The notes beneath the pieces are model-generated. The model had not been told where the DNA came from, ran no database searches, and worked only from the letters and a program-made list of their open reading frames with translations. A stretch of DNA of 64,000 nt from Haloechinothrix aidingensis (GTDB taxonomy: Bacteria; Actinomycetota; Actinomycetes; Mycobacteriales; Pseudonocardiaceae): assembly GCF_013450155.1 (NCBI RefSeq), contig NZ_JACCKD010000001.1:496001-560000 (forward strand), written 5' to 3'. This document shows positions 9,149 through 54,342 of the stretch, in pieces (the stretch's first letter is position 1; each line of letters opens with the position of its first letter). A program made the position numbers and the translations under genes.

Positions 9149-9152
9149 GGGG

Positions 9153-9206
9153 CGAGCCGAATGACTCCTTCGGTACACCACAGGTACCCGAGGAGGCCTT
9201 CGGCTC
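9153..9206. terminator. Long imperfect hairpin between convergent genes
   Basis: Arms 9153-9176 and 9183-9206 pair over 24 positions with a few mismatches (CGAGCCGAA with TTCGGCTCG at the base, GGTAC with GTACC at the tip) and a 6-base loop. It lies four bases after the pabC stop and before a convergent gene, so a bidirectional terminator is likely. Confidence 0.6.
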
Positions 9207-9252
9207 GCGGTTGCCGGGAACGCGCGATCAATACGTCGTCGCACACCCCGGA

Positions 9253-35390: not shown

Positions 35391-37736
35391 CTAGCCGCGG
35401 CCGGATCCGTCATGGCTGCGCGCCCACAGCACCAGCATCCCCGGAGCGACCAGCGTGGCGGCGAGCAGCGCGAACGCGATCGCCGCGCCACCGAGCACGC
35501 CGAGGGACCGGATAGGGGGCAGGTTCGACAACGACAGCACGACCAGCGCCCCGAGGGTGGTCAGCGCCGAGCCCGCGAGCGCGCCGCCGGTGTTGCGCAG
35601 CGTCCTCGCGATCGCGTCCCCGGCGCTCGCGCAACGCCGGTCTTCGGTGAACCGGTTCACGACGTGCACCCCGTACGGGACACCGATACCGATCGCGATC
35701 GCGGTGAGCGTCGCGGTCAGCGCGTTGAAGCTGATGCCGAGCAGCCACATCGTGCCGAGGGTCCACGAAGCGCCTGCCACGGCGGGGGTCATCGCGATCA
35801 CCCCGAGTACCGGCCTGCGGTACGCCGCCGTGTAGTACGCGACCAGCAGTCCCAGCACCACGGACAGGGTCAGCGCGATGGCCCGGGCCTGGAACCGGCC
35901 GAGGTCGTCGTTCATGCCGTTGACGATGATCGGCTCGCTGGTGACGGTGACGCTCGCCCCTGTATCGGAGACGGGGGCGAACGCGTTCTCGATCTCCGCG
36001 CGCAGCCGCTCGGCTCCGGAGTCGCCCGCGGTCGTGCGGATGTGCACGAGTCCGGCGCGGTCGTCCGCGGAGAGGAACTGCCCGACCTGTTGCTCGCCGA
36101 CGGTTCCGCGGAGCCGCTCGTAGACCGCGGCGAGGTCTCCTTCACCGGTGACGTCCGCACCGGTACGCGCCGCGAGCGAGACAACCGACGTCGCTTGCGG
36201 CGTGCCGCCCACGGTGCGTACGCCCGGCACGTCCGCCAGGTTGCCGTGCGCCCGTCGGATGGCCGCCGTGAGCTCGCCGTCGGTGAAGTCGCCGTCGACG
36301 ACCGCGTAGGTCGTCTCGGTGACGCCGGAGCCGAAGAGCTCCTTCTGGTGCGTCAGTGTCGCTTCGATGTCCGAGCCGGTGGGGACGAAGTCGTCCCTGT
36401 CGAACTCGGTATCCAGGTCCGTGGCGGCCAGCAGGGATCCGAGCGTCAGTAGGGTGGCCACCGCGAGCCCGAGCGCCGGTGCCCGGCGCGCCAGCGTGAC
36501 GGGAGCGCCTGCGAGGCGCCCCAGCCCGATCTCCCGCACCCTTCCGGGCTGCCGGGCTCCACCGTGGTCTCGCAGTACACGGGCTGCGGGGACGAGCAGC
36601 GTCATGATCGCGAACGCGCACAGCACGCCGACCGCGACGAAGACCCCGAAGTCGGCGATCATGGGCAGCGGGGCGGTCGCTGTGGTCGCGAACCCGGCCG
36701 CGGTGGCCACTGTGGCCAGCATGAGTGCGATGCCGACGGTGCGAAGGGCGCCGCCGGCGGCATCGGCGGGGTTCTCACCAGCGGCGCGCTGCTCGCGGTA
36801 GCGGGCCGTGAGGTGGACGGAGTAGTCGATGCCCAGGCCGACCAGCAGTACGGGCACGATGATGGCCAGCTGGGTCAGCGGTCCGGTCCAGCCCAGATGC
36901 GCGGGACCGAGCACCGCGGCGATCCCGAACGTCCATACCACGGTGCACAGCAGCCCGGCGAACCCGACGGCCACATCGAACACCGACCGGTACATCAGCG
37001 CCAGCACGGCCAGCACCACGAGGAGCGCGATCGCGAACAGCATCGGCGCCTCGGACTGCACGGCGTCCAGCATCCCGGAGTCGAACAGCCCGAGGCTGAA
37101 GACCGTGACGCGCATGTCACCCAGCGCGGCAGGCTCGGGGTCCTCGAACGCCGCCTGTACGCGCTCGCCCGCCTCGATGCGTTCGGACTTGGCCAGCTCC
37201 TGGTCGATACCGAGCACGAGCACCATGGCGCGAGCGCTGCCATCCTCGAGATCGACATCATCGGAGACCAGGGTCGCCAGCCGCGGGTTCGAGGTGATCA
37301 GCTCGGCTGTGGACGCGGCGAGCGTGTCGTCGCCGACCGCGGTCGGATCCACCCCCTGCTCCCGTAGCGCGGCACCGAGGGAGCTCACGTGCGGCCCACC
37401 GCGATCACCGTCGCGGACATCGGCGCCGAGTGCGTCGGTGGCGATGTCCGTGGCCTGCGCCGCGGCGCCGAATCCGGCTCCGGTGAGGATGTTCGCGCCG
37501 GGGCCGGCGTCCAGGATCACCTGCACGGTGGCCGAGGGATCGACGAAGTCCTCCTGGGCCCGGTCCAGGGCTTGTGCGGCTTCCGCGTCGTCCCGCCCCA
37601 GCTGCGTGATGTCGACTTCGAACTCGTTGGTCGATGCCAGTACCGCGAAGCCGAGCGTGGCGACGACGAGCGCCGTGAGCACCGAACGGGGGTGGCGCGT
37701 GCCTGCGGCCTCGAGCCGGCTGAGAAGTATCCGCAT
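35391..37736 (-). CDS. RND-superfamily exporter (MMPL/HAE3 type)
   Basis: 781 residues, about 12 TM helices in two halves with large extracytoplasmic loops. Each half contains the sterol-sensing-like core: LLVGLGIDYSVHLTARYREQ in the first and IAIGIGVPYGVHVVNRFTED in the second. Likely exports lipids or hydrophobic compounds; the substrate is unknown. ATG 37736 follows a good promoter 45-70 bp upstream. Operon with the TetR gene. Confidence 0.88.
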   Translation of the reverse strand: MRILLSRLEAAGTRHPRSVLTALVVATLGFAVLASTNEFEVDITQLGRDDAEAAQALDRAQEDFVDPSATVQVILDAGPGANILTGAGFGAAAQATDIATDALGADVRDGDRGGPHVSSLGAALREQGVDPTAVGDDTLAASTAELITSNPRLATLVSDDVDLEDGSARAMVLVLGIDQELAKSERIEAGERVQAAFEDPEPAALGDMRVTVFSLGLFDSGMLDAVQSEAPMLFAIALLVVLAVLALMYRSVFDVAVGFAGLLCTVVWTFGIAAVLGPAHLGWTGPLTQLAIIVPVLLVGLGIDYSVHLTARYREQRAAGENPADAAGGALRTVGIALMLATVATAAGFATTATAPLPMIADFGVFVAVGVLCAFAIMTLLVPAARVLRDHGGARQPGRVREIGLGRLAGAPVTLARRAPALGLAVATLLTLGSLLAATDLDTEFDRDDFVPTGSDIEATLTHQKELFGSGVTETTYAVVDGDFTDGELTAAIRRAHGNLADVPGVRTVGGTPQATSVVSLAARTGADVTGEGDLAAVYERLRGTVGEQQVGQFLSADDRAGLVHIRTTAGDSGAERLRAEIENAFAPVSDTGASVTVTSEPIIVNGMNDDLGRFQARAIALTLSVVLGLLVAYYTAAYRRPVLGVIAMTPAVAGASWTLGTMWLLGISFNALTATLTAIAIGIGVPYGVHVVNRFTEDRRCASAGDAIARTLRNTGGALAGSALTTLGALVVLSLSNLPPIRSLGVLGGAAIAFALLAATLVAPGMLVLWARSHDGSGRG

Positions 37737-37777
37737 CGGCGCTCGCTCCCGTCGGCTGGTCGGACGGCCGGGTAGCG

Positions 37778-37806
37778 ATGCTAGTGCCGTGCCACACACA
37801 AGTCAA
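37778..37806 (-). promoter_or_regulatory. Sigma-70 type promoter of the RND exporter
   Basis: On the minus strand TTGACT (37806-37801) and TAGCAT (37783-37778) are separated by 17 bp. The expected transcription start is about 35 bp before the exporter ATG. Confidence 0.55.
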
Positions 37807-37877
37807 CGCATGTTTAATTCTTTCCCGGCGGCGAGTGCCTGTGGGGCGGGATACGATCGGATCGTGGTGGTGAGCCG

Positions 37878-38852
37878 ATGAGCAATACCGAGACCGACCC
37901 TGTGGAGCTGGCCTGCCGTACGCGGGTAGCCACGCCGGGCAGAGTGGAGGTACTCAGCGCGCGGTCGGTGCCGTTGGGCGGGCAGCGTGCGATGCGCGTG
38001 CGCCGTACGTTGCCGCAGCGTGCTCGTTCGCTGGTCGGCCCGTGGTGTTTCGCCGACCAGTTCGGACCCGATGAGATCGCCGAGACGGGCGGTGTCGACG
38101 TACCACCGCACCCGCACACCGGGCTGCAGACCGTCACCTGGCTGTTCGCGGGCGAGATCGAGCATCGGGACAGCTCGGGTGTGCACGCGCTGGTGCGTCC
38201 CGGCGAGTTGAACCTGATGACCGGTGGCCGAGGTATCTGCCATTCGGAGGTGGCTACGCGGGGCGGCCCCATCCTGCACGGGGTGCAGCTGTGGGTGGCC
38301 CTGCCCGACGAGCACCGCGACGCCCCACGGGACTTCCAGCATCATGTCCCCGAGCCGGTCCGGCTCGACGGCGCCACGGTGCGGGTGTTCCTCGGCGAGC
38401 TGGCCGGAGTCACCTCACCCGCGCGTGCCTTCTCCCCGCTACTGGGTGCGGAGCTGGTACTGGCCCCGTCGGCCGTGCTGACGCTGGATGTCGACGCCGC
38501 GTTCGAACACGGGGTCCTCGCCAGCACGGGTGGTGTCACCGTCGCGGGCACGGAGCTCGATGCCGGAGACCTCGGATATCTCGGCACCGGCACGCGTTCG
38601 GTCACGGTCGCCAACCGGTCCACGGAGCCGGCCCGGGCCATCCTGCTCGGCGGGGAGCCGTTCGGTGCGGAGATCGTCATGTGGTGGAACTTCGTAGGCC
38701 GCAGTCACGAGGAGATCGTCGGTTTCGCCGGGGAGTGGGAGCAGGAGTCCGAGCGGTTCGGCCGTGTGGAGGGGTACTCGGGCAGTACCCCGCGGCTGCC
38801 GGTGCCCCCGCTGCCCGGCACCCGGCTCAAGCCGCGCGGCAATCCGGGTTGA
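37878..38852 (+). CDS. Pirin-family bicupin
   Basis: 324-residue cupin with the metal site HPHTGLQTVTWL (His77, His79) plus the later His and Glu in GGRGICHSEV, matching pirin/YhhW, some of which have quercetinase activity. The C-terminal cupin ends in GRSHEEIVGFAGEWEQESERFG. The stop TGA at 38850 is formed by the first bases of a palindromic repeat. Confidence 0.88.
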   Translation: MSNTETDPVELACRTRVATPGRVEVLSARSVPLGGQRAMRVRRTLPQRARSLVGPWCFADQFGPDEIAETGGVDVPPHPHTGLQTVTWLFAGEIEHRDSSGVHALVRPGELNLMTGGRGICHSEVATRGGPILHGVQLWVALPDEHRDAPRDFQHHVPEPVRLDGATVRVFLGELAGVTSPARAFSPLLGAELVLAPSAVLTLDVDAAFEHGVLASTGGVTVAGTELDAGDLGYLGTGTRSVTVANRSTEPARAILLGGEPFGAEIVMWWNFVGRSHEEIVGFAGEWEQESERFGRVEGYSGSTPRLPVPPLPGTRLKPRGNPG

Positions 38853-38927
38853 ATGACGCTTTCAGTCCGCCTCGTGGGCTGAAAGCGTCATTCAACCACC
38901 CGTATGGAGCGAAAGCGTCATTCAGCG
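38849..38927. repeat. Palindromic repeat, copy 1 plus an extra half copy
   Basis: TTGAATGACGCTTTCAG (38849-38865) pairs perfectly with CTGAAAGCGTCATTCAA (38879-38895). A further arm GAAAGCGTCATTCAGCG follows at 38911-38927. Located between convergent genes; both genes take their stop codon from repeat sequence. Related copies lie at 42338 and 45865. Confidence 0.88.
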
Positions 38928-39385
38928 CGCCGGTTGTGCCGGGGTGACCGGCGCACCACCTCGAGGGGGAGTACCACCGCGACGGCGACCACGACGTGCA
39001 TGACGGTGAGCGCGATGGCGGTGCCGGTGCCGGCTTCGGCCGCGAAGATGCCCGCGATCGTCGCCAGCGCGAGTGCCGCACCGATGACCTGAGCGGTCCG
39101 GAGTACCCAGGTCCACCAGCTGGCGAGGAGGACAGCAAGCGCCGTCCCGACGGCCAGCGGCACCGTGGAGAAGAGCAGGATCATCCCCGCTGTCACCTCG
39201 TCCGAGCCGGACTCGCCCGCGACGAGGAACGTGGCTCCCGCCAGCTGCCCGATGAGGTACAGCGCCAGGTTGACCAGTCCGGACAGTACGACGCCGACGG
39301 CGATCGCCTGCCACGGGTTGATCCGGTGAGCGAGGCGGGTGGGTGTGGATTCCGTGCTCTGCTGTGCTGCGTATGTCTGTGTCAT
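38918..39385 (-). CDS. DUF6069-like four-TM membrane protein
   Basis: 155 residues with about four TM helices (NPWQAIAVGVVLSGLVNLALYL and three others). I match it tentatively to DUF6069, function unknown. ATG 39385; the Shine-Dalgarno is weak. The TGA stop lies inside the extra half copy of the palindromic repeat. Confidence 0.68.
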   Translation of the reverse strand: MTQTYAAQQSTESTPTRLAHRINPWQAIAVGVVLSGLVNLALYLIGQLAGATFLVAGESGSDEVTAGMILLFSTVPLAVGTALAVLLASWWTWVLRTAQVIGAALALATIAGIFAAEAGTGTAIALTVMHVVVAVAVVLPLEVVRRSPRHNRRAE

Positions 39386-39621
39386 GACGCCAAGCGTCCA
39401 ACTTCGAGTAAGGTAGAAGTCAATACGTTGTGTGTCCCGTCTCAACCGCGTCGGCTCGGTGTCCGCCCGCCGTGCCGGTAGCGGCTCGTGTGGCGGGCTC
39501 GGACCGCTGCGTGCCGCGCATCCCGTTCGTCCGCGCGCCGACGCCGGGCATACGCTGGCACCAGCTGTGTGGCCGCGGGAGGCGATGCCGCGTGCCGCTA
39601 CCCCGACAGGAAAGAGGCGCC

Positions 39622-40656
39622 ATGACGGTCGAGTCCACCGAGTTGGCCAACCGGCTGCTCGACGCGCAGGTGGAGTTCATTCTCGGCGAGCTGACCGGCG
39701 ACCGCCTGGCGGAGGTCGTTGCCAGAGACGTGGACGACCTGCTCGGTGTCGCGGCGACGACCACGCTCGCCGACCTAGTGGACCGGGAACGGGTGAAGGC
39801 CACCGCGAACACGATCCTGGACAAGCCGGCGGGCAGCGCCGTCATCGACCCCATGGTCACCGGCATCGCCGACGCGGTCTACCGGCATGCCGCCAACGAC
39901 GAGCACCAGCTCGGCGAGGTCGTCGAGCGGGAACACGTGGAAGCGCTGGTGACCAAGGTTCTCGGGATGCGTTCCCTGCACGAGGAGATCCTGCGACGGC
40001 TCGGTGACAGTCCGGTGGTGGCCACCGTGGCGTCCTGGTTCGTCACCAAGCTGGTGGCCGATGTGATGCAGCAGAACCGCGAGCTCGCCGAGCGGGTGCC
40101 TGGCGTGGCCTCACTGCTGTCGGTCGGCGAGCGCGCGACCAGCAAGGTGCGCGGTGCGACCTCGCGCCACCTCGATCAGTTGCTCGGCGATATGGCGGGC
40201 AAGGGGACCCAGCTCGCGCTGCGCCGGGTGAGTGGCGCGATCCGGCACACCGTCGACGAGGCGCCGTTGCACGAGGCGGCGATGGAGGTGTGGGACCTGC
40301 ACGCCGAGGACACGGTCAGCGGGTTGCGCGACTATCTCAGCCGCGAGGACCTCCTCGAGCTGGCCGGGATCGGCAGCGAGATCTGGGCGATCCTGCGCGA
40401 CACCGAGTACTTCCGCACCATGATCGCGGCCGGAGTCGACGTCTTCTTCGACACCTACGGTGGTTACACCGTTACCGCGCTCCTCGGCGAGCTCGGCCTG
40501 AGCAGGGACGATCTGGTGACCGAGGTGCAGCGTTACGCCCCTGCCGTTGTCGGTGCGCTGAACGCGGACGGGCAGCTGGCCGAGCTGGTCCGGCGCAGGC
40601 TGGAGCCGTTCTTCCACTCCGAGGCCGTGCTCGGAATGCTGGCGGGCACGCGTTGA
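39622..40656 (+). CDS. Conserved soluble helical protein, function unknown
   Basis: 344 residues, almost entirely predicted alpha-helical, with no TM segment or signal. Recurrent VxREHVEALV and VDRERVKATA-type segments suggest internal duplication. AAAGAGG precedes ATG 39622. I recognise only a conserved actinobacterial hypothetical protein. Confidence 0.65.
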   Translation: MTVESTELANRLLDAQVEFILGELTGDRLAEVVARDVDDLLGVAATTTLADLVDRERVKATANTILDKPAGSAVIDPMVTGIADAVYRHAANDEHQLGEVVEREHVEALVTKVLGMRSLHEEILRRLGDSPVVATVASWFVTKLVADVMQQNRELAERVPGVASLLSVGERATSKVRGATSRHLDQLLGDMAGKGTQLALRRVSGAIRHTVDEAPLHEAAMEVWDLHAEDTVSGLRDYLSREDLLELAGIGSEIWAILRDTEYFRTMIAAGVDVFFDTYGGYTVTALLGELGLSRDDLVTEVQRYAPAVVGALNADGQLAELVRRRLEPFFHSEAVLGMLAGTR

Positions 40657-40728
40657 GCGAGCGGTACGGCGGCCGAGGTCGTTCCGGGGGCTCGGGCGTG
40701 TGTGGTGGAGCGTGGAACGGAGGAACGC

Positions 40729-41619
40729 ATGAGTATGTCCGCAGCAGGCACCGGCGCGCGCGGTGACGGTACGGCACCAGGCAGTGTCGGCGTGCTCGGT
40801 GGCGGCCGCATGGGGGCCGGCATCGCGCAGGTGTTCGCCGCGCGAGGCGCGCGGGTCGCCGTGCTGGAGAGCGGAACCGGCGAGGTGGAGGCGGCCCGAG
40901 AGCGGGTGCGAACCGGGCTCGCCCGTGCCGCCGAGCGCGGCATGCTCGACGAAGAGCCGGAGGACGTGCTGGCCAGGGTCCGGTTCGTTACGTCCGTGAC
41001 CGAGCTGGCCGGGGACAGCGAGCTGGTCGTGGAGGCGGTCCCCGAACGTGCCGACCTGAAGGTGCGGCTGCTCGCCGATGCCGAGCGGTCGGTACCGGCA
41101 GGGACGGTTCTTGCCAGCAACACCAGCTCACTGTCCATCGCCGAGCTGTCCACGGCGCTGGAAGATCCCTCGCGCTTTCTCGGGATGCACTTCTTCAACC
41201 CGGTACCGGTGTCCGAACTGGTCGAGCTGGTCGTCGCGCCGCACACCTCGGATGCGACACGGGACCGGGCGCGGGCCTGGGTACGCGCGTTGGGCAAGAC
41301 GGAGGTGGTGATACGCGACTCGCCGGGGTTCGCGACCAGCAGGCTGGGGGTGACGCTCGGGCTCGAGGCTGTCCGCATGCTCGAGGAAGGGGTCGCCGAC
41401 GCTCAGTCCATCGACACGGCGATGGAGCTGGGGTACCGGCATCCGATGGGGCCGCTGCGTTCCACCGACCTGGTCGGCCTCGATGTCCGGTTGGCGGTGG
41501 CCGAGTACCTCAGCGGCACGCTCGGTGACCGGTTCACCCCGCCCCGGCTGTTGCGGGACAAGGTCGACCGTGGCGAGCTGGGGCGCAAGTCCGGGCAGGG
41601 TTTCTATCCCTGGTCATGA
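40729..41619 (+). CDS. 3-hydroxyacyl-CoA dehydrogenase family protein
   Basis: 296 residues; paralogue of the protein at 3956. NAD motif GVLGGGRMGAGIAQVFAARG, catalytic region LGMHFFNPVPVSELVELV, and C-terminal ELGRKSGQGFYPWS. GGAGG five bases before ATG 40729. Chain-length preference cannot be read from sequence. Confidence 0.92.
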   Translation: MSMSAAGTGARGDGTAPGSVGVLGGGRMGAGIAQVFAARGARVAVLESGTGEVEAARERVRTGLARAAERGMLDEEPEDVLARVRFVTSVTELAGDSELVVEAVPERADLKVRLLADAERSVPAGTVLASNTSSLSIAELSTALEDPSRFLGMHFFNPVPVSELVELVVAPHTSDATRDRARAWVRALGKTEVVIRDSPGFATSRLGVTLGLEAVRMLEEGVADAQSIDTAMELGYRHPMGPLRSTDLVGLDVRLAVAEYLSGTLGDRFTPPRLLRDKVDRGELGRKSGQGFYPWS

Positions 41620-41915
41620 CGAGGGTCGTGCTGGTGGCCGCCCCGCAGGGCCCGGTGCTCGCCGGTGCGTCCGGCCCCTCGTTCCGGCCGCGCGGAGCAC
41701 ATCGGATAGTCGCTGGTGCGCGGGGGTAGCTGCGCACCGGCTTCGGGCGTGGCACGGGACAGCGTACCGCCGGGAGGCGGCTGCACCGCGAGTACGGGAC
41801 GAGCGCCGTGTGGCCGGTCGAGCGAATCGTCCTTTTCATCGGACCGTTCGAGGTCCATCATGGGTGTATCGGCGTCGTCGCAGGTGGACGATCCGAGATG
41901 ACGAGGAGGTTCGTG

Positions 41916-42332
41916 ATGGAAGTCGTTGTCCTCATCGGTCGCATACTGTTCGCGATTCTGTTCGTCGGTTCCGGGGTCAATCACCTCATGCAGGTCAACG
42001 GTATGACCGGTTACGCTCAGTCCCGAGGAGTGCCGCTGCCGAAGGTGGCTGTGGTGGTCTCCGGCATTGTGATCATCATCGGTGGCCTGTCGGTGCTGCT
42101 CGGCATCTGGGCCGACCTGGGTGCCCTGCTGCTGCTCATCCATGTGGTGCTCTCGGCAGCGCTCATGCACACGTTCTGGACGGAGACGGACGAGCAGGCA
42201 CGTCAGGGCGAGATGACCCATTTCATGAAGAACGTCGGATTGGCGGGTGCGGCGCTGATGCTGTTCGCATTCTTCGCCTACGTCGACGATCTCGGCCTGA
42301 CCATAACGGGACCGCTGTTCTCCCTCAGCTAG
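41916..42332 (+). CDS. DoxX-family membrane protein
   Basis: 138 residues with four TM helices and the family N-terminus LIGRILFAILFVGSGVNHL; the DoxX loop FWTETDEQARQGEMTHFMKN matches the group. GAGGAGG precedes ATG 41916. DoxX-like proteins are linked to redox or quinone chemistry, function unsettled. A palindromic repeat follows six bases after the stop. Confidence 0.85.
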   Translation: MEVVVLIGRILFAILFVGSGVNHLMQVNGMTGYAQSRGVPLPKVAVVVSGIVIIIGGLSVLLGIWADLGALLLLIHVVLSAALMHTFWTETDEQARQGEMTHFMKNVGLAGAALMLFAFFAYVDDLGLTITGPLFSLS

Positions 42333-42337
42333 GGATA

Positions 42338-42388
42338 CGCTGAATGACGCTTTCAGTCCACGAGATGGATTGAAAGCGTCATTCAGCG
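42338..42388. repeat. Palindromic repeat, copy 2 (hairpin terminator-like)
   Basis: Arms 42338-42360 and 42366-42388 pair over 23 bp with a single G-T, closing a 5-base loop; core CTGAATGACGCTTTCA. It sits between the convergent DoxX and ccdA genes and contains the ccdA stop codon (42383-42385). Confidence 0.9.
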
Positions 42389-43234
42389 CATGAGGCGGGA
42401 GCGGCGTCGCGCGGCGAGGGTCGTGAGTAGGACGACGGCGGCGAGCACGGCGAGCAGCGGTAGCGCGCCGATGGAATCCACAATAGATGCGAACGCCTGC
42501 TGCACGGCGGTTACCGAGCCGACGATGGGGTCGCTCACCTCGCCACCGAAGTGGAACAACCGGATCTCGTAGACGCCGTAGTACACGACGTAGCCGCCCG
42601 CGAGCACGAGCAAGGCGCCCGCGGTGCGGTGAATGGCACCCAGCGCTCCCCGGACCCGCGCGACCACCTGCGTGCCCGCGACCGCGACGGCGACGGCGAG
42701 GACCCCGACCACCAGCGCCATACCCGCCCCGTAGGCGAGGAACGCGAGTATGCCGTCGGCTACCGAGCCGGCACGGAACGTCTGCCCGGTCACCGCGAGG
42801 AACGGCCCGACGGTGCAGGACAGTGAGGCGACGGCATACGCGATGCCGTACCCGAGCATCGAGCGAAGCTGCCCGGTGGGCTTTCCCACGGTGGGTTTGG
42901 GCAGCAGCAGGGTCAGGTCCCGCCCGGTGAGCAGCCAGACACCGATGGCGACCAGCGCCGCGCCCACGACCACGGTCACGGCAGGGAGGTACCGCTGCAC
43001 CTGCCCCGCGAGCGGGGAGATGACCAGGCCGAAGCTCCCGAAGACGAGCAGGAAACCGAACGCCATGGCCGAGGTCGCCGCCAGTGCCCGGTAGACCGCC
43101 CGCGTCCTGCTGGGCCGCTCGCCGTCACCGAGCACGACCAGCGCGAGGTAGGCGGGCAACATCGCGAAACCGCACGGGTTGAACGCCGCGACCAGCCCGG
43201 CCGCCAGCGCGAAGGCGAGGATCCCGCTGTCCAT
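42383..43234 (-). CDS. ccdA: CcdA/DsbD-like thiol-disulfide membrane transporter
   Basis: Moves reducing equivalents from cytoplasm to extracytoplasmic thioredoxin-like proteins. 283 residues, six to seven TM helices, paired cysteines in FNPCGFAMLPAYLAL and SLSCTVGPFL. Stop lies in palindromic repeat copy 2. It follows the TlpA-like lipoprotein gene by 11 bp; together they form a likely extracytoplasmic reduction pathway. Confidence 0.9.
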   Translation of the reverse strand: MDSGILAFALAAGLVAAFNPCGFAMLPAYLALVVLGDGERPSRTRAVYRALAATSAMAFGFLLVFGSFGLVISPLAGQVQRYLPAVTVVVGAALVAIGVWLLTGRDLTLLLPKPTVGKPTGQLRSMLGYGIAYAVASLSCTVGPFLAVTGQTFRAGSVADGILAFLAYGAGMALVVGVLAVAVAVAGTQVVARVRGALGAIHRTAGALLVLAGGYVVYYGVYEIRLFHFGGEVSDPIVGSVTAVQQAFASIVDSIGALPLLAVLAAVVLLTTLAARRRSRLMR

Positions 43235-43245
43235 GATCGCGATAC

Positions 43246-43821
43246 TCAGGACCCGGCCAGGTCACTGAGCCGTTGATCAAGCTCGTCCTCGCCGACCGTG
43301 CCACGGACCACGTCGACCTCACCGGAAGCGTCGACGAACGCGTACGCGGGCTGGCGTGTCACGCCGAACGCTGTCCACACCTCGCGGTCCGCGTCGTTGA
43401 TGTGCTCGAACGTACCGAGCTCGTAGTCGGTCACGAAGTCCCGCATGGCCGAGACGTCGTCGTCGGCCGCGACGCCGACGAAGTCGACCTGCTCACCGTG
43501 CGTGGCGTGCGCCTCGGCCAGGGCAGGAGCCTCCGACTGGCAGATCGTGCACCACGGTGTCCAGAACCAGAACATCGCCGCCCCGCCTGCGAAGTCCTCG
43601 CCGCGGATGTCCTCGCCGCGGATGTCCTCGCCGTTCACCGTCTGCGCGGAGAACCGCAATGGCTCGGCGGGCGCGCCCTCCTGCGGCCCGTCCTGCTGTT
43701 GAGTACCGTCCCCGGTTCCGGTATCGGCGCCCGTGCGATCGTCCTCGGTCGAGGTCCCGCAGGAAGCGAGGACGAGCAGCCCCGCGGTGAGGAGCCCCGC
43801 CGCGCCTGCGCGATGTCGCAC
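43246..43821 (-). CDS. TlpA-like thioredoxin-fold lipoprotein
   Basis: 191 residues from GTG 43821 with GGGAGG five bases upstream. The lipobox LLVLASC gives an extracytoplasmic membrane anchor, followed by an acidic Gly/Gln linker and a redoxin domain with WCTIC as active site and the cis-Pro loop VTRQPAYAF. Likely reduced by the adjacent CcdA. An odd GEDIRGEDIRGEDF repeat precedes the active site. Confidence 0.88.
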   Translation of the reverse strand: MRHRAGAAGLLTAGLLVLASCGTSTEDDRTGADTGTGDGTQQQDGPQEGAPAEPLRFSAQTVNGEDIRGEDIRGEDFAGGAAMFWFWTPWCTICQSEAPALAEAHATHGEQVDFVGVAADDDVSAMRDFVTDYELGTFEHINDADREVWTAFGVTRQPAYAFVDASGEVDVVRGTVGEDELDQRLSDLAGS

Positions 43822-44137
43822 CTGTACCTCCCGTGATCGCGTGTGTGCACAATCCGGTTCCTGGCCCGCGCCGTTCGCCGGTCCGACAGGCCGGGACTCC
43901 CCCATTCAACCGCATAGCCGCGAGATCAGCACAGCAGTGTCGGCAGGCTGACACAACGTGGTCGCCGCGCCCCTCGCAGGAGCTTGTGGGGTCCGGTCGG
44001 CGCGGGCAGGGATCTGATCAACGGGTTCGCGACGCGTGCTCGCCGCGGGTATCTCGTATCGTGGGGCGGCGGACCGGCGCCGCGCCACGAGCCCGGTCCG
44101 GTGGGCGCGGCAGGCGTGCGATGGAAGGGGTGCGGCC
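43822..44137. other. 316-bp divergent intergenic region
   Basis: Lies between divergent genes starting at 43821 and 44138. I see no conserved gene, tRNA or clear promoter pair; GGAAGGGG at the right end is the Shine-Dalgarno of the DUF427 gene. Confidence 0.4.
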
Positions 44138-44938
44138 ATGTCACTCGCCGTGGGGCGCGGACCGTTCGGCGAGCGCCCGGCGGGCGCGTCCAACCTGCCC
44201 GGCCTGCCTGCGACAGTCCTGTACCTGGAGGACCGGCCACGGCGGGTCAGGGCCGTGCTGGGTGGGGAGACGGTCGCTGACACCGACAGGGTGAAGCTGT
44301 TGCACGAGACCGGGACCCCGGCGGTGTACTACTTCCCGGCAGGCGATGTGCGCACCGAGCTACTGCGACCGTCCGGCACACGCACGGTCAGCGAGGTGAA
44401 GGGCACCGCGGTGTACTACTCGGTGGCCGCGGGCGGGAAGGTCGCTGCCGACGCGTGCTGCGCCTACCCGGACCCGCCCCCGGAAGCGCCGCCGCTGTCC
44501 GGGTACCTGGCGTTTACCTGGGAAGCGATGGATGCCTGGTTCGAGGAGGACGAGCGGGTCCACCTGGAGCCGCGCGACCCGTACCACCGCGTCGATGTGC
44601 TGGCCGGCTCCCGCCGCGTGTGCGTCGAGGTGGCGGGCCGCGTCCTTGCCGACAGCGGGCGCCCGCTGGTCGTCTACGAGACCGGGGCGCGCCCGCGCTA
44701 CTACCTACCGGCCGACGACGTCGATGCCGGCGTGCTGGTGGCCGGCCCGACCACGAGCCGTTGCCAGTACAAGGGCCTCGCCACCTACTGGACCGTCGAG
44801 TCGGCCGAAGGCCGGGTCCATGACCTCGCGTGGACCTATGCCGAGCCGAACGCCGAGGCCGCGCGCCTGGCCGGGCACATCTGTTTCCGCCAGGAACGCG
44901 CGGAGGTCACGGTGACCGTGGACGGCCGCACCGCGTGA
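44138..44938 (+). CDS. Tandem DUF427-domain protein
   Basis: 266 residues with two DUF427 barrels. Domain 1 about 35-125 (VRAVLGGETVADTDRVKLLHETG, VKGTAVYYSV), domain 2 about 150-245 (YKGLATYWTVESAEG, DLAWTYAEP). GGAAGGGG precedes ATG 44138. The biochemical role is unknown. A single-domain DUF427 protein lies nearby at 45422. Confidence 0.85.
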   Translation: MSLAVGRGPFGERPAGASNLPGLPATVLYLEDRPRRVRAVLGGETVADTDRVKLLHETGTPAVYYFPAGDVRTELLRPSGTRTVSEVKGTAVYYSVAAGGKVAADACCAYPDPPPEAPPLSGYLAFTWEAMDAWFEEDERVHLEPRDPYHRVDVLAGSRRVCVEVAGRVLADSGRPLVVYETGARPRYYLPADDVDAGVLVAGPTTSRCQYKGLATYWTVESAEGRVHDLAWTYAEPNAEAARLAGHICFRQERAEVTVTVDGRTA

Positions 44939-44971
44939 GTACCCGCAGGGCCCGCACCGCGCTCGATCGGG

Positions 44972-45358
44972 CTATTGCTCGCAGTAGCGCTTCAGCCCGG
45001 TGAGTCCCTCCTCGATCGCGGGCCCGAGGGTCTCGGCGAGCGAGTCGGGCGTGATCTCGGTGCTGTAGAGGACGAGCGCTTCCTCACCGTCCTCCAGGAC
45101 GTCGACGGTCCCCAGGTGGGACTCGACGGGGAGGCCGCCGGTGATGCGGTACTGGAAGCGCCTGAGCTGCGGGTCGTTGGTGACGATCTCTTCCTCGATC
45201 GGCGTGCCGTCGGCCAGCTCGCAGTGACGGCTGTCGCCCGAGGCCGATGAGGTCGCGATCGCGGGAAACCACGCCGATATGTTCCCGGCGTCACTGACGA
45301 CGTCCCAGACCTCCTGGGCAGGCCGGTCGATCGTGGTCTGTGTGCGCAGCGTTGTCAT
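44972..45358 (-). CDS. SRPBCC (polyketide cyclase/START-like) protein
   Basis: 128 residues, single SRPBCC domain (TTIDRPAQEVWDVVSDAGNISAWFPAI), a hydrophobic-ligand-binding fold common in actinomycetes. No catalytic residues can be assigned. Minus strand, upstream of it lies the DUF427 gene at 45422. Confidence 0.82.
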   Translation of the reverse strand: MTTLRTQTTIDRPAQEVWDVVSDAGNISAWFPAIATSSASGDSRHCELADGTPIEEEIVTNDPQLRRFQYRITGGLPVESHLGTVDVLEDGEEALVLYSTEITPDSLAETLGPAIEEGLTGLKRYCEQ

Positions 45359-45421
45359 TCCGTTCCTTCCGTAACGCTCGGGGTCTTCCGGTTCACAGGT
45401 CGGGCTCGCCTGCCGCCCGGA

Positions 45422-45775
45422 TCACGTCCGGCGTGCGCCGAGGCGTGCGAGCAAGCCGCGTACGGGGCCTCGCTCCGCCGCGGGCTCACGCGTGCCGTCG
45501 ATGGTGACCTGCCCGCCGAAAGCGACGTGGTTCTTGATCCGGAGGGCGAGTGGTGACGGGTGGGGGTAACGCCACGCGAGGTCCGGCCCGATGTCGTCGC
45601 CGAGGATGATGTTGTGGTACCTCGCCACGCCCTTCCAGGGGCACAGGGTCTTCGATGGACTGTCCCCGAAGTACTCGCTGTACACGGAGTCCGGCGGGAA
45701 GTAATGGTTGCCTTCGAGACGGATCGTGCGGGGCGTCTCAGCGAGCACGACACCGTTCCACACCGCGCGCATCAT
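45422..45775 (-). CDS. Single DUF427-domain protein
   Basis: 117 residues: MRAVWNGVVLAETPRTIRLEGNHYF, TLCPWKGVARYHNIILG and DLAWRYPHP are the family motifs. ATG 45775 or the next codon ATG 45772; GAGG lies upstream. Followed 63 bp later by the SRPBCC gene. Confidence 0.85.
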   Translation of the reverse strand: MMRAVWNGVVLAETPRTIRLEGNHYFPPDSVYSEYFGDSPSKTLCPWKGVARYHNIILGDDIGPDLAWRYPHPSPLALRIKNHVAFGGQVTIDGTREPAAERGPVRGLLARLGARRT

Positions 45776-45864
45776 CGCACTCACCTCTCTCCGGACGGTA
45801 CAACCAGTGCAACCACCGGGCGCGCCGCACGGCGGCAGGACTGTCATCGCGCTGACACCTATCG

Positions 45865-45913
45865 GCTGAATGACGCTTTCAGTCCACCCGAAGGACTGAG
45901 GGCGTCATTCAGC
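45865..45913. repeat. Palindromic repeat, copy 3
   Basis: Arms 45865-45885 and 45893-45913 pair over 21 bp with two G-T pairs and a 7-base loop; core GCTGAATGACGCTTTCAG. It lies between two minus-strand genes and holds the stop codon (45909-45911) of the gene on its right. Confidence 0.88.
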
Positions 45914-46496
45914 GTCGACCGGCCGGCCAGGTGAGCAGTGGAGCGTTGATCACGACGTCGGTCCGTTCGGCGGACAGCTCGCCCGCCTCGATCGCGTCCT
46001 CGACCTCGCCCGCCGAGGTGAGTAACCGTGGCCCGGCGCTCGTGCCGTCCTCGTTCCACGTCAGCAGCACCAGGCGCCGCAGCGGGGTGTAGCCGTCGTC
46101 CCCGGGGGCGGTGTCGAACACATCGGGCTGGAACTCCAGCGGGCCGCGAGGTCCGTCGGGCCGCACGCCGTTGGTGAACACGTAGACCGGGCCGAGCGCG
46201 GACTCCGGGGCCTCGGCCAGCTCGGGCACGGTGGTCACCGGCGAGCCCATCATGTCGGTCAGCAGCTCGGAGATCTCCGGGTCGGAGGACTCCGGGTGCG
46301 CGAAGAGGACCCGCTCCCCCTCGTAGTAAGCCGCCACGGGCGGGAAGCGCGGCGCCTCCCCTGCCATACCGTCCATACCCGCTCCGCCGTCGCTGGTCGA
46401 CATATCTTCCTGACCGAGCCCGTAGACCCACCAGGTGCCGAACCCGAGTACGGCCACCGCGATGATCACCGCGACCCCGATCCATCCCTTTGTCAT
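45909..46496 (-). CDS. Membrane-anchored conserved protein (DUF7482-like)
   Basis: 195 residues: N-terminal TM (IGVAVIIAVAVLGFGTWWVYG), Met/Asp/Gly-rich linker with MSTSDGG and GMDGMAGE, and a C-terminal globular domain with RRLVLLTWNEDG and DVVINAPLLTW. Met/Asp-rich linkers can bind metals but that is only a suggestion. Family assignment tentative; function unknown. Confidence 0.65.
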   Translation of the reverse strand: MTKGWIGVAVIIAVAVLGFGTWWVYGLGQEDMSTSDGGAGMDGMAGEAPRFPPVAAYYEGERVLFAHPESSDPEISELLTDMMGSPVTTVPELAEAPESALGPVYVFTNGVRPDGPRGPLEFQPDVFDTAPGDDGYTPLRRLVLLTWNEDGTSAGPRLLTSAGEVEDAIEAGELSAERTDVVINAPLLTWPAGRR

Positions 46497-46732
46497 GTGT
46501 TCGAGCCCTGTCCTGTGCCGGTATCCCTTCCGGCGAGCACGGTAGAACCTTGACCTCGCTGGAACGTCAAACTCGGCTCCCGCGGCGAACGGCGGGAATG
46601 GACAGGGCATCACGCGATGCGCGCCGGCGGCCGGGCGGCGCGTTCGTTTCGAACGGCCGCCGTGCCGTGCGAAACTCGGATCATGGTGTATGAACCGGAC
46701 CGGCACGGAACGGCGTCCACGAGGCGGCAACC

Positions 46733-48547
46733 GTGAGCTCGTCCCACCCGATCGAGGACTACGCGCTCATCGGCGACACCGAGACGGCAGCGCTGGTGTG
46801 CCGGTCCGGCAGCATCGACTGGCTGTGCCTGCCGCAGTTCGACGCGCGGGCCTGTTTCGCCGCCCTGCTCGGTGACGCGACCAACGGCCGGTGGCTGCTG
46901 GCACCCGCCGCGGAGGTCACCGCCGTGCGGCGCCGTTACCGGCCGGGCACGCTGGTGCTCGAGACCGAGTTCGACACGGCCGAGGGAACCGTACGGGTGG
47001 TCGACGCGATGCCGCCCCGCCCGGCCGACGGGCGGGCGCGCCACGATGTGGTGCGCCTTGTGGAAGGCGTGGCCGGGCGCGTCGCCGTGACCATGGAGCT
47101 GGTCATCCGCTTCGACTACGGCTCGCTCGTGCCCTGGGTGACCCGCCGGGACGGGCGGCTCCGGGCCGTGGCCGGTCCGGACGCGATCACCCTGGCCTCG
47201 CCGGTCGAGGTGCACGGGCGCGACCTGAGGACGGTGTGCGACTTCACGGTCGAACCCGGCGAGCAGGTGCCCTTCGAGCTGGTGTGGCATCGTTCCCACG
47301 AACCTGCCCCGCCGCAGGGGGACGTGCCGGGGGCCGTGGAAGCCACCACGCAGTGGTGGCAGCAGTGGTCGGGGCACAGCATCTACCAGGGTGACTACGC
47401 CGAGGCCGTGCAGCGCTCGTTGATCACCCTGAAGGCGCTGACGTACCGGCCCACCGGCGCGATCGTGGCCGCTCCCACGACGTCGCTGCCCGAGCAGCCC
47501 GGTGGGGAGCGTAACTGGGACTACCGCTACGCGTGGCTGCGCGACGCCACCTTCGCCCTGCAGGCGCTGATGCAGGGCGGTTACCGGGAGGAGTCCGTGG
47601 CGTGGCGGGACTGGCTGCTCCGCGCGGTGGCGGGCGACCCCAAGCGGCTGCAGATCATGTACGGCATAGCCGGGGAGCACCGGCTGCCCGAGCTGACCCT
47701 GGACTGGCTGTCCGGGTACGCGGACTCCAGGCCGGTGCGTATCGGTAACGCCGCATCCACCCAGCGCCAGCACGACGTGTACGGCGAGGTCATGGACGCC
47801 CTGCACTACGCGCGTGAGGTCGGTATCGATCCGGAACCGGAGGCATGGTCCCTGCAGCGCGCGCTGTTGAGCGATCTCGAGTCCCGGTGGAACGAGCCGG
47901 ACGAGGGTATCTGGGAGATCCGCGGTACACCCCAGCACTTCACCCACTCCAAGGTCATGGCGTGGGTGGCATTCGACCGCGCGGTCACTGCCGTCGAGCG
48001 GCACGGGCTCGACGGGCCCGTGGAACACTGGCGCGAGCTCCGGTCCGCCATCCACGCCGAGGTCTGCGCCAAGGGGTACAACGCCGAACGCAACACGTTC
48101 ACCCAGGTCTACGGGGGCACGGATGTCGACGCGAGCCTGCTGCTGATCCCCATCGTGGGTTTCCTGCCCGCAGACGACCCCCGGGTGGCAGGCACCGTGG
48201 ACGCGGTCATCGCCGATCTCTCGGTCGACGAAACGTGCGTGCTGCGCTACCCGGAACATTCCGGTGTGGACGGCCTACCCGAGGGTGAGGGCGCCTTCCT
48301 GCTGTGCTCCTTCTGGCTGGTCGACGCGCTGGTGCTGCTCGGAAGGTACGAGGAGGCGAGGGCACGATTCGAGCGCCTGCTCGCGGTGCGCAACGACGTC
48401 GGGCTGCTGGCGGAGGAGTACGCGCCACCCTTCGGTCAGCTGGGCAACTTCCCGCAGGCGTTCAGCCACATCGGACTGATCAGCTCAGCCTGCAACCTCG
48501 CGCGTGAGCGGGGACCGGCCAGCGAGCGCGCGGGCAGGCACGCCTGA
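46733..48547 (+). CDS. Glycoside hydrolase family 15 protein (trehalase/glucoamylase-like)
   Basis: 604 residues. N-terminal beta-sandwich (IEDYALIGDTETAALVCRSGSIDWLC) and C-terminal (alpha/alpha)6 barrel (RNWDYRYAWLRDATFALQAL). Putative catalytic acids are in EPDEGIWEIRG and LLAEEYAP. Actinomycete relatives include alpha,alpha-trehalases; the specificity is not decided here. Cytosolic, with no signal peptide. Confidence 0.9.
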   Translation: MSSSHPIEDYALIGDTETAALVCRSGSIDWLCLPQFDARACFAALLGDATNGRWLLAPAAEVTAVRRRYRPGTLVLETEFDTAEGTVRVVDAMPPRPADGRARHDVVRLVEGVAGRVAVTMELVIRFDYGSLVPWVTRRDGRLRAVAGPDAITLASPVEVHGRDLRTVCDFTVEPGEQVPFELVWHRSHEPAPPQGDVPGAVEATTQWWQQWSGHSIYQGDYAEAVQRSLITLKALTYRPTGAIVAAPTTSLPEQPGGERNWDYRYAWLRDATFALQALMQGGYREESVAWRDWLLRAVAGDPKRLQIMYGIAGEHRLPELTLDWLSGYADSRPVRIGNAASTQRQHDVYGEVMDALHYAREVGIDPEPEAWSLQRALLSDLESRWNEPDEGIWEIRGTPQHFTHSKVMAWVAFDRAVTAVERHGLDGPVEHWRELRSAIHAEVCAKGYNAERNTFTQVYGGTDVDASLLLIPIVGFLPADDPRVAGTVDAVIADLSVDETCVLRYPEHSGVDGLPEGEGAFLLCSFWLVDALVLLGRYEEARARFERLLAVRNDVGLLAEEYAPPFGQLGNFPQAFSHIGLISSACNLARERGPASERAGRHA

Positions 48548-54250: not shown

Positions 54251-54342
54251 GGAGGCGCATCCGGCCTGGTGGCCGGCACGGTCTTCAAAACCGATGAACG
54301 GCAGGCACTGTCGTTGGCGGGTTCGATTCCCGTTCGCCTCCG
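54251..54342 (+). tRNA. selC: tRNA-Sec (anticodon TCA)
   Basis: Acceptor stem GGAGGCG/CGCCTCC, a 6-bp D stem CCGGCC/GGCCGG with 4-base loop TGGT, anticodon loop CTTCAAA with TCA at 54285-54287, an 8-bp extra arm AACGGCAG/CTGTCGTT, and T arm GCGGG-TTCGATT-CCCGT, giving about 13 stacked acceptor/T pairs. The six-pair D stem and very long variable arm are diagnostic of selenocysteine tRNA. CCA is not encoded. It lies 48 bp before selA. Confidence 0.95.

Follow-up and report, generated by a model that had tools for sequence, protein, structure and literature searches.

A REP-like Hairpin Family at Gene 3' Ends of Haloechinothrix aidingensis, with Loops that Flip between Sister Species and no Detected RAYT

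Results

Hairpin Elements in the Window and Their Neighboring Genes

In our study, we analyzed a stretch of 64,000 nucleotides of Haloechinothrix aidingensis (Pseudonocardiaceae; assembly GCF_013450155.1, contig NZ_JACCKD010000001.1, positions 496,001 to 560,000), called the window below, in which a palindromic hairpin element recurs at the ends of genes. The element belongs to a family that resembles the repetitive extragenic palindromes (REPs), for which no REP-associated tyrosine transposase (RAYT) was detected and whose loops flip between sister species; it is a gene-end element and is real beyond chance. With up to 3 mismatches allowed, the window contains 7 matches to the sequence TGAATGACGCTTTCAG, where 0.23 would be expected, and 0 of 100 shuffles reached 7. 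The 7 matches were found to make up three elements, one with three arms and two with two arms (Table 1). RNA folding of the three hairpins gave −49.5, −40.6, and −39.3 kcal/mol, with z values of −8.6, −10.1, and −9.0, respectively. An Rfam scan of the window found no known RNA family at the hairpins, and its sole match was a selenocysteine tRNA (tRNA-Sec).

A first-pass annotation of this DNA had described three hairpins and a half copy at position 38911. The three hairpins are real elements, with TGAATGACGCTTTCAG far above chance, and their earlier coordinates were off by 1–3 bases. The half copy is a genuine arm and not a separate copy; it is the third arm of the first element, 30 bp past the second. 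The stop codons of the pirin, DUF6069, ccdA-like, and DUF7482 genes were all found inside arms, exactly as that annotation had described. The gene names Pirin, DUF6069, DsbD_TM, and DUF7482 were supported by Pfam, and the starts of the DUF6069 and DUF7482 genes are those chosen by the gene caller.

Table 1. Positions of the hairpin elements, flanking genes, and other features in the window.
Feature	Position	Strand	Remarks
Matches of TGAATGACGCTTTCAG	38850, 42341, 45867	+
Matches of TGAATGACGCTTTCAG	38879, 38909, 42370, 45896	-
Three-arm element (+--)	38850-38924		arms of 15 bp each at 38850-38864 (+), 38880-38894 (-), and 38910-38924 (-)
Two-arm element (+-), 45 bp	42341-42385		between the convergent DoxX and ccdA-like genes
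Two-arm element (+-), 45 bp	45867-45911		between the 3' end of the DUF7482 gene and the 5' end of a DUF427 gene, both on the - strand
Pirin gene	37878-38852	+	stop at 38850-38852, in the left arm (first TGA)
DUF6069 gene	38918-39385	-	stop at 38918-38920, in the third arm (second TGA)
DoxX-family gene	41898-42332	+	own TAG stop; element 8 nt beyond
ccdA-like gene (DsbD_TM)	42383-43234	-	stop at 42383-42385, in the right arm (first TGA)
DUF7482 gene	45909-46496	-	stop at 45909-45911, in the right arm (first TGA)
Hairpin related to GAGCCGAAGG	9152-9208		second hairpin family
Selenocysteine tRNA	54251-54341		Rfam RF01852, 80.2 bits

Copy Number and Anatomy of the Element

The genome of H. aidingensis comprises 4.84 Mb in 15 contigs. 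A search with GAATGACGC gave 124 matches in it against 7 for the reversed control. The covariance model R1, built on an alignment (A1) of 20 copies chosen by exact arm, gave 143 strand-matches, which represent at least 74 distinct hairpins; this count is a lower bound, as 150 of 1442 candidates were scored with R1. The dispersed repeat family proposed in the first-pass annotation thus extends over the genome.

The repeat unit consists of a 15-bp arm and a 15-bp spacer, and a copy has the form (+ arm)n-loop-(- arm)m on a 30-bp grid. The hairpin is nearly perfect, with a stem of about 20 bp or more and a 7-nt loop, and forms on either strand. The arm carries TGAATGA, whose two TGA triplets give a stop in two of the three frames, and each arm is itself a quasi-palindrome in sequence, CTGAA-N7-TTCAG. 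When GTDB contigs were searched with the full hairpin pattern (three free loop bases), a search that may omit records very near the window, 8 stretches were found, all from Haloechinothrix alba DSM 45207, which also belongs to Pseudonocardiaceae. With no order imposed, the arm orders in H. alba were 34 '+-', 14 '++-', 9 '+--', 1 '+++-', and 1 '+---', and 84 of 86 spacings were exactly 30 bp. One inversion center was present in each of these 59 elements. In H. aidingensis, where the search was seeded from the hairpin core, the orders were 67 '+-', 4 '+--', and 3 '++-', with 76 of 81 spacings exactly 30 bp. The dispersed copies were found to have loop and spacer motifs in common.

In the 979,546 bases of H. 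aidingensis covered, a selection made largely around elements, all 136 arms were part of multi-arm elements and none stood alone. Single sites like the DNA uptake sequences (DUS) of Neisseria were set aside on this count. One lone arm was found outside those bases (L027). A second hairpin family, GAGCCGAAGG, had 143 matches in the genome against 73 for the reversed control, and many of its listed matches were inverted pairs 43 bp apart; a related hairpin lies in the window (Table 1).

Position Relative to Genes and Stop Codons

Gene calling in the 979,546 bases covered relied on a home-made codon-model caller, which was trained on the H. aidingensis genome. Most copies were found at the 3' ends of genes. 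The 74 elements occupied 29 convergent, 35 co-directional, and 9 divergent junctions, and 1 was inside an open reading frame (ORF). The control junctions were 239 co-directional, 50 convergent, and 46 divergent, and came from 400 kb of hand-picked stretches with round coordinates and no listed hairpin, which are usable for junction types and not for element density. The convergent share was 29/73 among the elements against 50/335 among the control junctions (p = 6e-6). The divergent share (9/73) was not significantly low against 44 of the 221 control gaps that were at least 45 bp long (p = 0.16). Of the co-directional copies, 33/35 were closer to the 3' end of the upstream gene. Strong hairpins with a different sequence (scores of at least 10) were present in 13 of the 50 control convergent gaps, against a 99th percentile of 9 for random windows, so that hairpins at convergent ends are not unusual in this genome.

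With distances taken from each element's outer edges, 25 of the 93 flanking gene 3' ends stopped at the first TGA and 15 at the second, followed by 29 ends that stopped 2–10 nt before the element, 21 at 11–30 nt, and 3 farther away. The flush ends were therefore 40/93; counted from the two-arm core, which omits the stops in third arms, they were 35/93. Every element with a flanking 3' end (64/64) had one such end inside it or at most 30 nt off. A stop codon was contained in 35 of the 74 elements, and two stops in 5 of these. Readthrough in the third frame was not found among the 40 flush ends, the exception being one deeply internal copy. The ORF-internal element of H. aidingensis (C1:37720-37770, L055) lies in an ORF of 1431 nt and has a counterpart with an identical loop at that position in H. 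alba. At one divergent junction (C8:635634-635684), the element is separated by 30 and 19 nt from the two gene starts that were called, and any promoter there would need to overlap the hairpin.

The 59 elements of H. alba with called genes on both sides were found at 26 convergent, 24 co-directional, and 8 divergent junctions and 1 inside a gene; of their 76 flanking 3' ends, 33 were flush, 40 at 2–30 nt, and 3 farther. At 10 of 10 loci from other genomes of the family, a gene 3' end was present 2–27 nt away and none was flush. The first-pass annotation had proposed a preference for gene ends and had named copies without it as the contrary case; genome-wide, the preference was strong, both for gene 3' ends and for convergent gaps. 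With at least 74 copies, just one of the 74 falling within a called gene, and a position near gene 3' ends, the family can be counted as REP-like in the broad meaning of the term.

Comparison with H. alba

For the comparison of the two species, 50 of the 74 elements had both flanks in the partial H. alba DNA, and the other 24 were not located. Nearly all compared sites were shared; the element was present in H. alba at 49/50, a figure biased toward presence by the last 20 H. alba stretches, which were chosen for holding the element. An earlier tiling of H. alba contigs gave 25 of 25 two-sided syntenic sites with the element. The flanks were mostly 90–97% identical. The one empty site retained CAGC, like the end of the element, and had no clear target duplication. 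A recent insertion at gene ends was hence not supported, with the same reservation on the chosen stretches.

The arm number was unequal in 22 of the 49 ortholog pairs, and three or more arms were found at 5 loci in H. aidingensis and 23 in H. alba, where one locus counts two elements flanking a gene that is absent from H. aidingensis. At that H. alba locus (C57:71864-72850, L160) the gene lies between the two elements, and the ortholog in H. aidingensis (C8:663792) is a single element, a pattern that would fit loss or gain of the gene through recombination between elements. Among the 49 pairs, perfect hairpins were counted 34 times in H. alba and 9 times in H. aidingensis. The arms of H. alba were nearer to the consensus: of 735 arm positions, 86 were changed in H. 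aidingensis and 22 in H. alba (about 4-fold). The arrays of H. alba were also longer.

The stop class was identical in 58 of 62 compared 3' ends (34 with their own stop, 15 with the first TGA, and 9 with the second). At C8:389546, the gene of H. aidingensis ends at a TGA of the element, and that of H. alba has a stop of its own 8 nt ahead of it. At C14:45849, H. aidingensis has a TAG 9 nt before the element; H. alba reads CAA at these bases, and its gene ends at the TGA of the element. This is the element as a back-up stop in action. The second TGA is used in H. aidingensis and the first in H. alba at C9:432975, and gene content is unequal between the two species at C8:663792.

Loop Inversion and Paired Arm Changes

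The loops were found in both orientations. Among the 49 ortholog loops, 22 were better aligned inverted and 26 direct, with 1 tie. The loop identity in the better orientation was 0.794 in orthologs against 0.577 in non-orthologs, and 0 of 5000 permutations reached this. A perfect flip was found at C8:437027, where ACGAGAC corresponds to GTCTCGT. Other stem-loops compared between the two species were inverted in 1/46 cases, against 22/48 informative element pairs (p = 3e-7); this control started from 57 orthologs of equal length, 11 of which were dropped for a stem less than 80% paired in H. alba. A smaller and looser control gave 2 of 13 better inverted and 1 tie. One hairpin outside the family (L083:2632-2677) was also flipped. 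All three pairs that have three arms in each species kept their array order and had a loop that was better inverted, one of them weakly (0.57 vs. 0.43); since the order is kept while the loop inverts, the part that flips is the loop. If flips are random in time, 22/48 corresponds to roughly one flip for each element since the two species diverged, with a wide interval.

Changes of the two arms were found to be paired in excess. In the 69 of 74 H. aidingensis hairpins of standard length, 39 matched arm changes were counted, where permutation gave 8.6 and the highest value in 5000 permutations was 19, and unmatched double changes numbered 3. The cross-genome alignment (A2) had 33 double-change cells against 11.4, and 0 of 500 shuffles reached this. 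Homogenized arms and inverted loops, which together are the signature expected of template switching during replication, were both found in this family (39 vs. 8.6 and 22/48, respectively).

Distribution and Search for a Transposase

Matches of R1 were found in 39 of 150 genomes of Pseudonocardiaceae, whereas R2, the model built on A2, had matches in 59/150, from 26 of 46 genera. In a sample of the phylum (296 genomes) H. aidingensis alone had a match (0/295 others), and the element is so far known from Pseudonocardiaceae alone. The candidates scored per genome were 39 for R1, 39 for R2, and 20 for the phylum, and weak families could be missed at these numbers. We found no earlier description of this REP-like family in Pseudonocardiaceae in the open PMC literature. 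The first-pass annotation had suggested looking for a REP-type transposase; PF01797 (Y1, REP-type transposase) was not found in H. aidingensis or H. alba. The domain was present in 32 of the 150 family genomes, of which 6 had R1 matches (about 8 expected) and 9 had R2 matches (about 13 expected). A REP/RAYT system was thus rejected, with PF01797 found in neither species and not associated with the element over the 150 genomes.

Discussion

The elements are probably, though by no means certainly, a dispersed family of REP-like hairpins that has a role at RNA 3' ends and changes in place by template switching. The hairpin, transcribed from either side, would form the 3' end of the mRNA, where it may act as a U-less bidirectional terminator or as a barrier to 3' exonucleases and readthrough. 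A ribosome that enters the arm would meet TGAATGA as a stop or a back-up stop. Template switching of the DNA polymerase between the inverted arms would homogenize the arms and flip the loop, and slippage or recombination between direct arms may add or remove 30-bp units. The copies would now change mainly in place and not through current transposition. Judged from sequence comparison, template switching may be the mutational engine of the family and close to saturation in it, and termination or another function at RNA 3' ends is a putative role.

Template switching at inverted repeats is known to homogenize arms and to invert spacers (PMC8604942, PMC8794818, PMC7202029), and arm homogenization, paired changes, and inversion of the loop or spacer were likewise found in our study. 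The cases counted in those papers are separate events at many loci, whereas in the present case close to half of the members of a single repeat family are concerned between two sister species. U-less (I-shaped) mycobacterial terminators are similar in being hairpins without a U-tail at most 50 bp from a stop codon; the present hairpins differ in being one sequence family common to many loci and in that their termination is presumptive (PMC12288462). Such hairpins near stop codons are discussed there as terminators, and the studies cited on them disagree.

Several points weigh against this interpretation. For the terminator role, the 9/73 copies between divergent starts are left unexplained, and a tract of T (4 or more in the first 9 nt) was found in 2 of 148 element flanks, against 7 of 342 control windows, from which T runs are rare throughout the DNA of H. 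aidingensis. Terminator-like sites were absent (0 found) from positions 37500–47000 of the window. A classical Rho-independent terminator was rejected on these two results, as the hairpin has no T/U tract. The first-pass suggestion of a terminator and stop in one is accordingly supported for the stop, supplied at 40/93 3' ends, and not supported for a classical terminator. Two of the studies cited in PMC12288462 conflict, by their titles, over the need of mycobacterial terminators for a U-tract. The gene positions also depend on the home-made caller. For the template switching, the 90 single-sided arm changes in H. aidingensis exceed the 39 matched ones, covariation in A1 (20 exact-arm copies) was not above shuffles, and the permutation and shuffle controls leave the relatedness of the copies in place. 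The class of better inverted loops includes weak margins, though many flips are clear; at a loop identity of 85% or more, 14 of the 49 pairs were inverted and 13 direct, and non-orthologs reached 7.4 and 9.4%, respectively. Most control stem-loops had shorter stems, and at a score of 13 or more 1/9 was inverted, so that the excess of flips over other stem-loops may reflect stem length.

The strongest competing explanation, which we hold to be distinctly less probable, is a mobile miniature element of the REP type or a miniature inverted-repeat transposable element (MITE) that a transposase acting in trans has spread. The bias to gene ends would then be survivorship, and TGAATGA would make insertions into gene tails tolerable. 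The loop and spacer motifs common to dispersed copies imply that dispersal happened at some time, and the 9/73 copies between divergent starts and the one inside an ORF would suit such an origin, as would the known supply of stop codons to flanking ORFs by REP termini (PMC3733652). However, PF01797 was not found in either species and co-occurred with the element less often than expected with both models, 49/50 compared sites are shared with H. alba, and the sole empty site (1/50) keeps CAGC without a clear target duplication. Random insertion into gene tails predicts readthrough in about one third of cases, against 0 of 40 flush ends, the one deeply internal copy aside.

It is unlikely that the element is mainly a DNA site for a nucleoid, supercoiling, or anchoring protein that binds arms on the 30-bp grid, placed at gene ends only to avoid interference with transcription. 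The 30-bp spacing independent of arm orientation, the near-invariant arms of H. alba (34/49 hairpins perfect) beside variable loops, and the quasi-palindromic arm would agree with a protein site. Arms that change in pairs across genomes do not agree with it, nor does the absence of lone arms among the 136 in the largely element-centered bases, with one found elsewhere (L027).

A speculative variant, to which we give similarly little credence, is that the elements are actively maintained. A factor acting in trans, by binding arms on the 30-bp grid or by switching strands, would keep the arms of H. alba uniform and flip the loops, and would be weakened in H. aidingensis, where the arms have drifted with their pairing partly kept; loop flips far above those of ordinary hairpins would be explained as well.

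A dedicated recombinase that flips the loop as a tiny invertible switch is very improbable; it would fit the flip frequency near 50% (22/48 against 1/46 other stem-loops), but a segment of 7–15 bp is, to our knowledge, far below the lengths of known invertible segments, and the flipped hairpin at L083:2632-2677 is not of the family. Arm homogenization and spacer inversion are, moreover, known products of template switching in yeast and in rRNA genes (PMC8604942, PMC8794818).

REPs that adjoin gene 3' ends and supply stop codons are already known (PMC3733652). The GTAG and CGTC REPs described there are similarly short dispersed palindromes by 3' ends, mainly at convergent and co-directional junctions; the termini of GTAG REPs often supply the stop codon of flanking ORFs, and CGTC REPs also lack a dedicated transposase, as in the present family. 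Their stems are 5–13 and 8–9 bp, respectively (PMC3733652), whereas ours span about 20 bp or more and enclose a 7-nt loop. The (+)n(-)m arms on a 30-bp grid and the loops flipping between sister species also set the present family apart. An unpaired GTAG or CGTC tag was not seen, since the stem pairs throughout, CGTC included. The word 'Actinobacteria' has 0 occurrences in the main text of PMC3733652. The REPINs and the bacterial interspersed mosaic elements (BIMEs), which have a RAYT, share regularly spaced palindromic modules in composite elements; in contrast to them, no RAYT was found here, each of the 59 H. alba elements has one inversion center, and no sign of current mobility was seen in the species pair compared (PMC2817692, PMC3116915).

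The present study adds to Pseudonocardiaceae a REP-like family without the transposase that often accompanies such repeats. The two-frame TGAATGA arm shows that a dispersed repeat can serve its neighbors as a stop and a back-up stop. The 49 orthologous hairpins, nearly half of them better aligned with the loop inverted, are a natural data set for measuring template switching at scale, and if the elements are actively maintained, the repeats would be a genome-wide recorder of template switching.

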